Shown here: positions 58,739 through 61,459 of the stretch, in pieces | Layout of the letters: every line of letters begins with the position of its first letter | Position numbering within the stretch: position 1 is the first letter of the stretch | Source: Nocardioides sp. QY071 | GTDB lineage: Bacteria; Actinomycetota; Actinomycetes; Propionibacteriales; Nocardioidaceae | Assembly: GCF_029961765.1 (NCBI RefSeq) | Contig: NZ_CP124681.1 | Location: forward strand, 372,001-436,000 | DNA length: 64,000 nt | Direction of reading: 5' to 3' | The notes under the pieces: model-generated | Told to the model about the DNA's origin: nothing | The model's input: the letters and a program-made list of their open reading frames with translations, nothing else | Database searches by the model: none | Translations under genes and position numbers: made by a program

Positions 58739-59557
58739 GTGGAGCCCTGGACCGGAGGCGGGTACGGCGAGCGTGGCCGCTGCGTGCTCGCCCCCAACCC
58801 CGGCATCATGACGCTCGACGGCACCAACACGTGGGTGCTGCGCGAGCCCGGGTCCGGCCGCTCGATCGTGGTCGACCCGGGCCCGCTGCACGACGATCAC
58901 CTCGACGCCGTGGCGGCCGTCGCCGGCGAGGTCGAGGCGGTCGTGGTCACCCACCACCACCTCGACCACACCGAGGCGGCGCGCTCCTTCGCCGAGCGGA
59001 TGGGCTGCGGGGTGCGCGGGCTCGATCCCGCGCAGTGCTGGCGATCCGACCCGCTCACCGACGGCGAGGTGCTCTCGGTCGGCGGCCTCGATGTCGAGGT
59101 GCTGACGACGCCGGGCCACACCACCGACTCGATCTCCCTGCTCGTGGAGGCCGACGGCGCCCTGCTGACCGGAGACATGGTGCTCGGCCGCGGTACGACG
59201 GTGATCGTCCACCCTGACGGCGACCTCGGCTCGTACTTCGACTCGATCGCCCGGATGCGCTCCCTCGTCACCGACGGCCGGGTGCGGTCGCTCTGGCCGG
59301 CCCACGGGCCGGTGCTCCCCGACGCCGCCGGGGTCCTCGACCACTACGTCGTGCACCGCCGCGAGCGCCTCGCCCAGGTCGAGGTCGCGCTCCAGCGCCT
59401 CGGTCTCACAACGGGCGAGCTCCCGCCCGACGTCGCCGAGGACCCGGCCCTGCCGCAGCAGGTCGTGGAGGTCGTGTACGCCGACGTCGACGAGTCGCTC
59501 TGGGGTGCGGCGGAGTGGTCGGTGCGGGCCCAGCTTGCGTACTTGGCACACCGCTGA
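58739..59557 (+). CDS. Metallo-beta-lactamase-fold hydrolase
   Basis: 272 residues, GTG start 2 bases after the NUDIX stop. The zinc motif THHHLDHT (H72, H74, D76, H77), a second His in TTPGHTTDS, Asp in LTGDMVLG, and a terminal His in WPAHGP give a complete active site. The nearest known group is LACTB2-like hydrolases/RNases. Counterpart of mycobacterial Rv3677c, which lies beside crp; here the two are separated by the DUF559 element. Confidence 0.88.
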   Translation: MEPWTGGGYGERGRCVLAPNPGIMTLDGTNTWVLREPGSGRSIVVDPGPLHDDHLDAVAAVAGEVEAVVVTHHHLDHTEAARSFAERMGCGVRGLDPAQCWRSDPLTDGEVLSVGGLDVEVLTTPGHTTDSISLLVEADGALLTGDMVLGRGTTVIVHPDGDLGSYFDSIARMRSLVTDGRVRSLWPAHGPVLPDAAGVLDHYVVHRRERLAQVEVALQRLGLTTGELPPDVAEDPALPQQVVEVVYADVDESLWGAAEWSVRAQLAYLAHR

Positions 59558-59568
59558 CCAGGCCGACT

Positions 59569-59658
59569 GACGTCCCTCTAACCGTTCGATCGAACGGTTA
59601 GAGGGACGTCTGGAATTCGAACTCCCCCAGATCGTTCGATCGAACGGTTAGAGGGGGT
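59569..59658. repeat. Left arm: two palindromes, P1 and P2
   Basis: P1 is a perfect 42-bp palindrome (59569-59610) centred in TTCGATCGAA. P2 (59622-59658, centre 59639.5) keeps the core CGTTCGATCGAACG but has imperfect flanks (CCCCCAGAT against GTTAGAGGGGG). Confidence 0.9.
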
Positions 59659-59732
59659 GGCATTCCGCCTTCGCTCATCGGAGGCTGTGGAGGAGGCGAG
59701 CAGGATCGGGCGACACCGACAACTCTTCGGTC

Positions 59733-60641
59733 ATGGACATCGATCTGAGCCGTCCGTTCCTCACGAGACAGTTCGAGCGCGCGGGGCACACGCGATGGGA
59801 GCTGCAGAACAAGGCGTACCACCAGTTGGTCAGGGGCGTGTGGGTGCTTGAGGAGCATGTCGACCTTGACTGCATGTATCGCGCAGCGTTGCTGCTTCAT
59901 CCGCCGTGGGCGTTCGTGAGTCGGCTGAGCGCCGCGGCGCTGCTTGGACTTCCTGTTCCGGACCACCCGTTCGTCCACATCACCGTGCGGCAAGAGAAAG
60001 AACGTCGATTCAGGCCGCAGATCAAGATCCACGTGACGAGCCGACGTCGCCGCATCATCGTCGTGAGAGGTATGCGGGTGAGCGATCCCTTCGAGACGTT
60101 CATCGACTGCGCGGGAAGTCTGGGGTTCGTCGATCTGGTGATCTTGGGCGATGCGCTCTGCCGCAAGTTCAAGCTCACGGCATCCGACCTGCGCAAGGCG
60201 TGCGCGGAGACTGAGGCGTACTACGCGGGCCTCGCACGTGCGGCGGCGTCTTTCGTGCGCGACGGAGTCGATTCTCCGATGGAGACTCGGCTGCGACTGC
60301 TGATCGTCCTGGCTGGCCTCCCAGAACCAGAGGTTAACGTCGTGCGCCGTTGGGAGGATGGCTCCTGGCGCAGGCGCTACGACCTCTGCTACGAGCGGAT
60401 CAAGCTGATCGTCGAGTACGACGGCCGGCAGCATGCGACGGACAGGTCACAGTGGAGGGCGGACATCGCCCGACGCGAGGAGTTCGACGACGAGGGCTAT
60501 CGCGTCATCGTGGTGACGGCGGAGGGCATCTTCGAGAACCCGCTCAACACCCTTCGGCGTGTTCGACGCCAGCTGGTGCTTCGTGGCTGGGGCGCCGTTC
60601 CCATGATCAGCGACGATTGGCGTGCGCACTTCGCAGCCTGA
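59733..60641 (+). CDS. AbiEi-like / DUF559 endonuclease-fold protein
   Basis: 302 residues. The N-terminal ~160 residues resemble the AbiEi antitoxin-type winged-helix and following domain (RGVWVLEEHVDLDCMYRAALL, FVSRLSAAALLGLP). The C-terminal domain matches DUF559/Vsr-like PD-(D/E)XK nucleases: DSPMETRLRLL (E184), RRYDLCYERIKLIVEYDG (D217, E228, D230) and H234, then REEFDDEGYRVIVV. No adjacent AbiEii-type toxin gene exists, so a classic type IV toxin-antitoxin role is unlikely. Codons with A/T in the third position (CTT, GTT, AGA) are more frequent than in neighbours, a sign of transfer. The start at 59733 follows no clear ribosome site. Confidence 0.8.
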   Translation: MDIDLSRPFLTRQFERAGHTRWELQNKAYHQLVRGVWVLEEHVDLDCMYRAALLLHPPWAFVSRLSAAALLGLPVPDHPFVHITVRQEKERRFRPQIKIHVTSRRRRIIVVRGMRVSDPFETFIDCAGSLGFVDLVILGDALCRKFKLTASDLRKACAETEAYYAGLARAAASFVRDGVDSPMETRLRLLIVLAGLPEPEVNVVRRWEDGSWRRRYDLCYERIKLIVEYDGRQHATDRSQWRADIARREEFDDEGYRVIVVTAEGIFENPLNTLRRVRRQLVLRGWGAVPMISDDWRAHFAA

Positions 60642-60659
60642 GCGTGGCGTCGGGTGGAC

Positions 60660-60747
60660 CTACCTCCAATCCGTTCGATCGAACGGATTGGGGGAGTTCT
60701 GGCGTGAAGATGTCCCTCTAAGCGTTCGATCGAACGCTTAGAGGGAC
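60660..60747. repeat. Right arm: two palindromes, P3 and P4
   Basis: P3 (60666-60691) is a perfect 26-bp palindrome, and P4 (60712-60747) a perfect 36-bp palindrome with the outer flank GTCCCTCTAAG. Both share the core of P1/P2, and their order and linker (GAACTCCCCC on the minus strand) mirror the left arm. The stem bases flanking the core differ from the left arm, with compensating changes that keep pairing. Confidence 0.9.
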
Positions 60748-60781: not shown

Positions 60782-61459
60782 TCAACGCGCTCGGCGCGAC
60801 ATCCGCTCCATGTCGAGGATGACCACCGAGCGGGGCTCCAGGCGCAGCCAGCCGCGCGACGCGAAGTCGGCGAGCGCCTTGTTGACCGTCTCGCGGGAGG
60901 CGCCGACCAGCTGGGCCAGCTCCTCCTGGGTGAGGTCGTGGTGGACGTGCACGCCGTCGTCGGCGGTGCGGCCGAAGCGGTCGGCGAGATCGAGCAGCGC
61001 CTTGGCGACGCGACCGGGGACGTCGGAGAACACCAGGTCGGCGACGACGTCGTTGGCCTTGCGCAGCCGGGCCGCCAGCTGGGCGAGCAGCCCGCGGGCG
61101 ACGGTCGGGCGGCCCTCGAGCCAGCGCAGCAGGTCCTCGTGGGACAGCGACGCGAACTCGGCGTCGGTCACGCAGGTGACAGTCGCCGAGCGCGGGCCGG
61201 GGTCGAAGAGCGACAGCTCGCCGAACATCTGGCCGGGGCCCATGATCGCGAGCAGGTTCTCGCGCCCGTCGGAGGAGGTGCGGCCGAGCTTCACCTTGCC
61301 CTCGAGGACGACGTACAGCTTGTCGCCGCTGTCGCCCTCGTGGAACAGGACCTCGCCGCGGCGCAGCCGGGTCGTGGCCAGCGACGTGCGCAGCCCTGCC
61401 ATCGCCTCGTCGTCGAGGGCACTGAACAGTGGCGCCTGACGGAGTACGTCGTTGTCCAC
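60782..61459 (-). CDS. crp: CRP/FNR-family transcriptional regulator
   Basis: 225 residues from a GTG start with GGAGGAAG upstream. The cyclic-nucleotide-binding domain has the phosphate cassette GQMFGELSLFDPGPRSATV, and the C-terminal helix-turn-helix is LTQEELAQLVGASRETVNKALADFASRGWL. The length and residues match actinobacterial Crp/GlxR proteins that respond to cAMP and control carbon metabolism. The gene position next to nth matches mycobacterial Rv3676. Confidence 0.93.
   Translation of the reverse strand: MDNDVLRQAPLFSALDDEAMAGLRTSLATTRLRRGEVLFHEGDSGDKLYVVLEGKVKLGRTSSDGRENLLAIMGPGQMFGELSLFDPGPRSATVTCVTDAEFASLSHEDLLRWLEGRPTVARGLLAQLAARLRKANDVVADLVFSDVPGRVAKALLDLADRFGRTADDGVHVHHDLTQEELAQLVGASRETVNKALADFASRGWLRLEPRSVVILDMERMSRRAR

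Follow-up and report, generated by a model that had tools for sequence, protein, structure and literature searches.

What is a single nuclease gene doing between two mirrored pairs of palindromes, in the space between two host genes? The gene lies in a 64,000-nt stretch of Nocardioides sp. QY071 (GCF_029961765.1, NZ_CP124681.1, positions 372,001–436,000, forward strand; the window, hereafter), and an initial annotation of this DNA had suggested that the encoded protein recognises the palindromes around it and forms a selfish unit with them.

The nuclease gene and its surroundings

The layout described in that annotation is borne out (Table 1). One nuclease gene lies between two arms in inverted orientation, the outer arms forming a terminal inverted repeat of 40 nt that is 93% complementary, and each arm contains two palindromes with a common 14-bp core, CGTTCGATCGAACG, present in four exact copies. 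There are no other matches to this core in the window, even with up to two mismatches; shuffled windows contain a mean of 0.45 such matches, and none of 100 shuffles reached four. The related linkers noted earlier are also present, with GAACTCCCCC/GGGGGAGTTC adjoining each inner palindrome, and the gene is indeed more A+T-rich than its surroundings, the GC content falling across it from about 0.73 to about 0.63.

Table 1. Coordinates of the nuclease gene, its predicted domains and the flanking features in the window
Feature	Position	Strand	Remarks
MBL-fold hydrolase gene	58739..59557	+	Upstream neighbour; host gene outside the unit
Left outer palindrome	59569..59610	.	Perfect, 42 bp; core 59583-59596
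Left inner palindrome	59619..59657	.	Imperfect; core 59633-59646; centre 50 bp from left outer
GCTGTGGAGGA	59684..59694	+	9/11 match to CCTGTGGATGA motif; upstream of nuclease gene
AbiEi-like/DUF559 nuclease gene	59733..60641	+	302 aa plus stop
AbiEi-antitoxin-like domains, predicted	59733..60260	+	Residues 1-176; likely DNA-binding
Vsr/I-Bth0305I homing-endonuclease-type nuclease domain, predicted	60270..60590	+	Residues 180-286
Right inner palindrome	60663..60694	.	Imperfect, 1 mismatched pair in 32 bp; core 60672-60685
Right outer palindrome	60712..60747	.	Perfect, 36 bp; core 60723-60736; centre 51 bp from right inner
Crp-family regulator gene	60782..61459	-	Downstream convergent neighbour; host gene outside the unit

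The structure model of the protein joins a part with the AbiEi fold to a nuclease part of the Vsr/I-Bth0305I type with the EDxHD/Vsr fold. The gene matches the DUF559 profile (and MTES_1575, below its cut-off) as well as the PADLOC AbiEi models, and the profile scan found no known transposase domain in it. Within the nuclease domain E228, H234 and D244 are invariant among 52 sequences, and D217 and R247 almost invariant. A scan of four neighbours identified them as the MBL, Crp, HhH-GPD/endonuclease III and NUDIX genes; neither a toxin gene (AbiEii, DUF1814) nor a methyltransferase gene lies beside the nuclease gene, which is flanked directly by MBL and Crp. There is one copy in its own genome (at E <= 1e-10), dN/dS is 0.14 in comparison with genome G144 and 0.13 with G034, and the gene is under purifying selection. 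A CCTGTGGATGA-like motif (at least 9/11) is present in 79 of 111 upstream flanks of homologues versus 2 of the 111 downstream flanks, and lies about 50 bp before the start codon (median -54 in the 49 homologues that match at 10 or 11 of 11 positions); it is a possible promoter or leader element.

Palindrome pairs within and among Nocardioides genomes

The exact core is present in 50 copies at 27 places in the 5.70-Mb, two-contig genome to which the window belongs (G000), arranged as 23 pairs (11 with a spacing of 50 bp and 12 of 51 bp) and four singles; two of the pairs are those in the window, and 25 further core places lie elsewhere. The backward control of the core has no match in this genome. 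The dispersed unit is a palindrome pair of about 85–100 bp, and the places that it occupies are mostly intergenic by a rough frame test, with an open frame running across 5 of 26 (L028, L035, L038, L045 and L050). Not counting the place in the window, 17 places have a clear ORF to either side, and at 12 of these the flanking genes are convergent. Compared by eye only, the linker of the scattered pairs is similar in two species with different cores, examples being TTCTGGCGCCCGAAA-like linkers in the window species and TTCTGGCGCGAAAA in L311 of G084. A second linker type, TGCTACAACA, occurs in four pairs from two species (L039, L041, L051 and L058), which constitute a subfamily. We also note that 19 of the 27 places lie no more than 1.0 Mb from one end or the other of the 5.59-Mb contig C1, a zone representing 36% of its length.

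A scan of 215 Nocardioides genomes, G000 included, shows how closely the core follows the gene. Exact CGTTCGATCGAACG cores number 50 in G000, 51 in G166 of the same species, 30 in G034, 23 in G144 and 18 in G133; among the other 210 genomes, 16 have one core and 194 have none. All five genomes with more than one core carry the nuclease gene adjoining a core, its product being 99%, 82%, 89% and 57% identical to the window protein in G166, G034, G144 and G133 respectively (named records include a 99% homologue in Nocardioides sp. SLBN-35 and an 82% homologue in N. daeguensis). Homologues at E <= 1e-60 are present in 67 of the 215 genomes. That the gene and the palindromes are associated seems to us almost certain. 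The earlier supposition that the palindromes are tied to the gene thus stands for CGTTCGATCGAACG, but not for every other core, as the genomes G111, G212 and G070 illustrate below.

If each gene spreads its own palindrome, then the core that flanks it should predict in which genomes scattered copies are present. For example, CGCGCGATCGCGCG, taken from the flanks of the gene in G086 (those in G026 hold a 13-base near match), is found 15 times in G026 and 12 times in G086, which rank first and second among the 215 genomes, the next best having four copies. For SCGCAATTGCGS, seven genomes were named in advance, and these contain 59 (G084), 28 (G160), 27 (G167), 13 (G097), 6 (G153), 4 (G197) and 2 (G004) copies; G098 has three, with one such core in the gene flank, and 147 of the 215 genomes have none. 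High counts outside the advance list are in G109 (30), G082 (25), G212 (21), G171 (15) and G111 (13), followed by G008 (7) and G036 (5). In G109, G082 and G171 the nuclease gene is present among SCGCAATTGCGS-type palindromes; the best homologues in G111 and G212 are distant (3e-10 and 1e-8). The third core, GGACACGTGTCC, is an exact flank 12-mer in G101 (N. hwasunensis, L188), G135 (L156), G096 (N. glacieisoli, L153) and G022 (L086), whose genomes contain 33, 24, 3 and 2 copies respectively. There are 26 copies in G136, in which the gene is flanked on both sides by GACACGTGTC; G019 and G012, also with GACACGTGTC flanks, have five copies and none, and there are ten in G070, which has no homologue at the search threshold of 1e-60. 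The first two scans therefore agree well with the prediction, and the third in part. The departures are of two kinds, repeats without a close gene (G111, G212 and G070) and gene carriers with few copies of the scanned core (two in G004, three in G098, four in G197, three in G096, two in G022 and none in G012).

Two observations made in these scans concern other genes and repeats. A backward control pattern, CCTGTGCACAGG, itself palindromic, occurs eight times in G060 and is possibly another repeat family. Immediately downstream of MBL, a distant gene of the DUF559 type (about 30% identical) is present at L097 (G008), at L285 (G036) and also in G018; L097 and L285 contain neither CAATTG nor TCGATCGA palindromes, despite the presence of SCGCAATTGCGS elsewhere in G008 and G036.

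Homologues, spacing and inheritance

Homologues with 40–60% identity often have different palindromes on both sides, for example CCGCGCGATCGCGCGG in G086, GGCCGCAATTGCGGCC in G084, CCACAATTGTGG in G207, CCAACTCGTGCGATCGCACGAGTTGG in G215, TCCGTTCAATTGAACGGA in G199 and CGGACACGTGTCCG in N. hwasunensis; N. donggukensis has pairs with CCGCAATTGCGG. We aligned the 300 bp upstream with the 300 bp downstream of 111 different homologues from Nocardioidaceae and also from Ornithinimicrobium, Terrabacter, Intrasporangium and others, and the mean score was 29.6 for flanks of the same gene versus 10.7 for those of different genes. Repeats common to both flanks (score >= 17.5) were found for 78 of the 111, compared with 2 of 300 segments of 906 bp drawn at random from the window and with 3 of 53 neighbouring ORFs; these repeats are not always perfect palindromes, and a palindromic 8-mer is shared in 46 of the 111 own-flank pairs versus 1033 of 12210 mismatched pairs. 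The expectation that orthologues elsewhere would be flanked by palindromes thus holds often, with different cores, but not throughout, since 33 of the 111 have no common flank repeat above 17.5. In G086, G222, N. glacieisoli, O. pekingense and G027, paralogues of the same genome differ in their flanking palindromes or repeats, as do two of the three copies in G197; one or both paralogues share little between their flanks in G218, G126, N. allogilvus and Soil797. Very long repeats common to both gene flanks occur at L157 (Humibacillus sp., score 106.5) and L329 (G027, about 70 bp), which are perhaps recently moved units.

Counted centre to centre in 69 cases, at loci with one core type on both sides, the spacing of the palindromes is 51 bp in 24, 53 in 20, 52 in 5, 50 in 4, 102 in 3 and 40 in 3, with ten single values, such that 53 of the 69 lie at 50–53 bp. 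By core, CGATCG has spacings of 51 (11 cases) and 50 (5), CAATTG of 51 (20) and CACGTG of 53 (19), and scattered copies from G084, G101, G026, G086, G082, G111 and G070 are also 51 or 53 bp apart. On a tree of 32 proteins there are seven changes among the three core types, compared with a mean of 14.6 for shuffled labels, none of 200 shuffles being as low. Taken alone, CACGTG requires two changes (10.6 when shuffled, 0 of 500 as low), CAATTG six (9.3, 10 of 500) and CGATCG five (6.5, 45 of 500). Core type therefore clusters on the protein tree, weakly so for CGATCG taken alone.

The nuclease gene lies between MBL and Crp in 11 genomes (duplicate records merged), and the core sequence varies between species even at this same locus. 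Among the best 30 MBL loci of 118 genomes, 24 are without the nuclease gene, and Crp follows MBL directly in two of these 24 (gaps of 154 and 55 bp), both junctions being too diverged to compare. Twelve of 17 places in G034 match places in G000 by both of their flanks and a further one by a single flank, leaving out of the count a match between L036 and L057 that arises through the palindromes alone. A clean empty site is present for the pair at L036, where the relative G144 is 99 bp shorter; G034 also is without the pair there, and has other repeats in its place. Because both relatives lack it, the L036 pair appears likelier to be an insertion in the window lineage than to have been lost from the others. 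At most a GA on both sides could represent a target-site duplication at this scattered pair (L036/L213), and none is clear. Among the 20 G144 sites listed, besides the L036 place, eight have one or two cores and 11 have no exact cores and diverged spacers.

Within the species, two singles of G000 (L026 and L050) are pairs in G166, the core-to-core differences being exactly 50 and 51 bp, and at L039 one core is changed by one base in G166; together these explain the 50 cores of G000 and the 51 of G166. No fresh insertion is seen in the 8 of 26 places compared between these two genomes, only changes between pair and single and other small ones. Since 13 of the 17 G034 places are at the same sites in G000 and none of the places compared within the species has a new insertion, movement of the pairs is slow, if it is ongoing at all. 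The gene itself is single-copy, rarely moves, is mostly inherited in place and is kept by selection. The empty sites anticipated among relatives are accordingly found in part, cleanly at one scattered pair and with Crp next to MBL in two gene-free loci, but close relatives share the MBL-crp locus. None of the three findings that the annotation named as refuting it was thus obtained in full.

Some sites have further peculiarities. At the G034 sites L236 and L237, matching L036 and L038, GGTCAACGGTGAGTTTGCGGCA-like and GGCGAGGATGCGGCA-like repeats occupy the gaps that hold a pair in the window species, and perhaps represent a competing repeat family. No homologue at E 1e-5 is present in the MBL-Crp gap of G010 (L275), but CGAATCGGGAGTTCC is repeated there, downstream of MBL and some 1.1 kb ahead of Crp; systems of more than one such kind may land in this gap. 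The two flanks of the L047 site are 11 kb apart in G034 (C25:144828-156096), and there seems to be an island at that spot.

Explanations and known systems

Because palindrome pairs both flank the gene and are scattered in its genome, and because many related genes sit between palindromes of their own, we judge it moderately probable that the gene and the repeats are partners, the AbiEi-like/Vsr-type protein recognising and helping to spread the palindrome pairs specific to its lineage. Binding, cutting or moving of the palindromes by the protein is what we infer. Two dimers would bind, each by its AbiEi-like part, to the two palindromes some 51 bp apart; the palindromes, perhaps extruded as hairpins, or a target would be nicked or cut by the nuclease part; and host repair would then place a copy of the pair, about 85–100 bp long, in some gap, frequently one where convergent genes end, in which it causes little harm. 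A further role of the upstream pair may be as an operator for autoregulation, as in AbiEi. The scattered copies could, on the other hand, be retained because they serve the host. The initial picture of a REPtron-like unit whose nuclease may recognise the palindromes is thus supported by the copies, the co-occurrence and the flanks, with the amendment that it is the pair that scatters and the gene that remains single and in place. The unit is possibly selfish DNA of a new kind.

The palindromes could instead be operators through which the AbiEi-like protein represses its own gene, with the scattered pairs as regulon or DNA-architecture sites that are vertically inherited and immobile. The promoters of AbiEi and Rv2827c contain 23-bp inverted repeats to which these proteins bind, as described in PMC7319586, residues 1-176 model as AbiEi, and many pair places are conserved between species. 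However, pairs are present downstream of the gene too and are often at convergent gene ends rather than promoters (12 of 17 places), species that share the MBL-crp locus nevertheless differ in core sequence, and one site is cleanly empty in a relative, and we regard this explanation as unlikely, though worth keeping in mind. It is improbable that another transposase moves the pairs as MITE- or REP-like repeats and that the nuclease gene is a passenger between two copies: the gene family lies repeatedly between different palindromes, including those of paralogues in one genome, core type is clustered on the protein tree, and the one transposase family searched for, Y1/RAYT, has no gene in G000 or G034, even though the pair, being small, dispersed and free of coding sequence, resembles a MITE and some genomes have many copies and no close gene.

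The match to PADLOC AbiEi models and the nuclease fold bring to mind a defence or addiction device, in which the nuclease attacks DNA unless restrained and the scattered palindromes are decoys or self markers, and AbiE is described as a phage abortive-infection toxin-antitoxin system (PMC3985639). Fixed-spacing pairs in tens of copies are not expected of decoys, however, and no toxin or methyltransferase was found among the four neighbours scanned; we give this reading a similarly small chance. The hairpins are long, perfect or nearly so, and frequently lie where convergent genes end, as ordinary bidirectional transcription terminators would, but the 14-bp cores are lineage-specific, the spacing is rigid, and there are only 27 places in a 5.7-Mb genome and no exact core in 194 of 215 genomes, making such an origin very improbable.

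The partnership of gene and repeat that we prefer resembles REPINs and RAYTs, the well-known case of a bacterial enzyme long kept with a population of short palindromes, in which RAYT enzymes are thought to copy REPINs to new places in the genome. Shared features are the one gene per system with palindromes on both sides, the presence of the same palindromes as pairs in tens of mostly extragenic copies (23 pairs here), the inheritance of the gene mostly in place, and cognate gene-repeat pairs. The differences are that the enzyme models as AbiEi plus a Vsr-type nuclease and not as Y1/HUH, and that the two palindromes of a pair share one core, at a spacing of 50–53 bp; the Y1/HUH profile PF01797 has no match in either G000 or G034 (5 of 14 control genomes were positive). 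REPIN-RAYT palindromes are described as having a GTAG or CGTC tag at their foot (PMC3733652). Membership of the REPIN-RAYT systems is ruled out by the enzyme. AbiE (AbiEi/Rv2827c) is similar in its AbiEi fold, and the palindromes upstream of the gene may be bound as AbiEi binds its promoter repeats, but here a nuclease domain follows, there is no adjacent toxin gene, and the repeats are also downstream and genome-wide; membership of the AbiE toxin-antitoxin systems is ruled out by the missing toxin.

Homing endonucleases spread their own gene into the cognate empty site, and those of the EDxHD/Vsr type (I-Bth0305I), like Vsr itself, have a similar nuclease fold, but here it is the short palindrome pairs that are numerous and the gene that is single. 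MITEs and insertion sequences are comparable in the inverted arms that enclose one gene and in their short derivatives without coding sequence; unlike these, the gene here has no known transposase domain and is not multi-copy, and there is no clear target-site duplication. With MBL and Crp as its neighbours, the gene also lacks the adjoining methyltransferase gene of a restriction-modification system. The features of homing endonucleases and transposons are thus partly present, and no known kind accommodates this system as a member; it works like REPIN-RAYT without being one.

We lean, narrowly, towards regarding it as a second, independent invention of the REPIN-RAYT lifestyle by a large AbiEi-Vsr family of the Actinomycetota, each member colonising genomes with its own palindrome pairs at 51- or 53-bp spacing, with room for several mutually orthogonal systems in a genome, and enzyme and palindrome co-evolving while the gene stays in place. 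If so, the parallel with an unrelated nuclease would make the partnership of enzyme and palindrome a general strategy, and its costs, benefits and specificity could be compared across two inventions. It would also provide a function for a group of orphan 'AbiEi/DUF559' genes, currently taken for antitoxins or defence genes, and a set of natural protein-palindrome specificity pairs that is ready for use.
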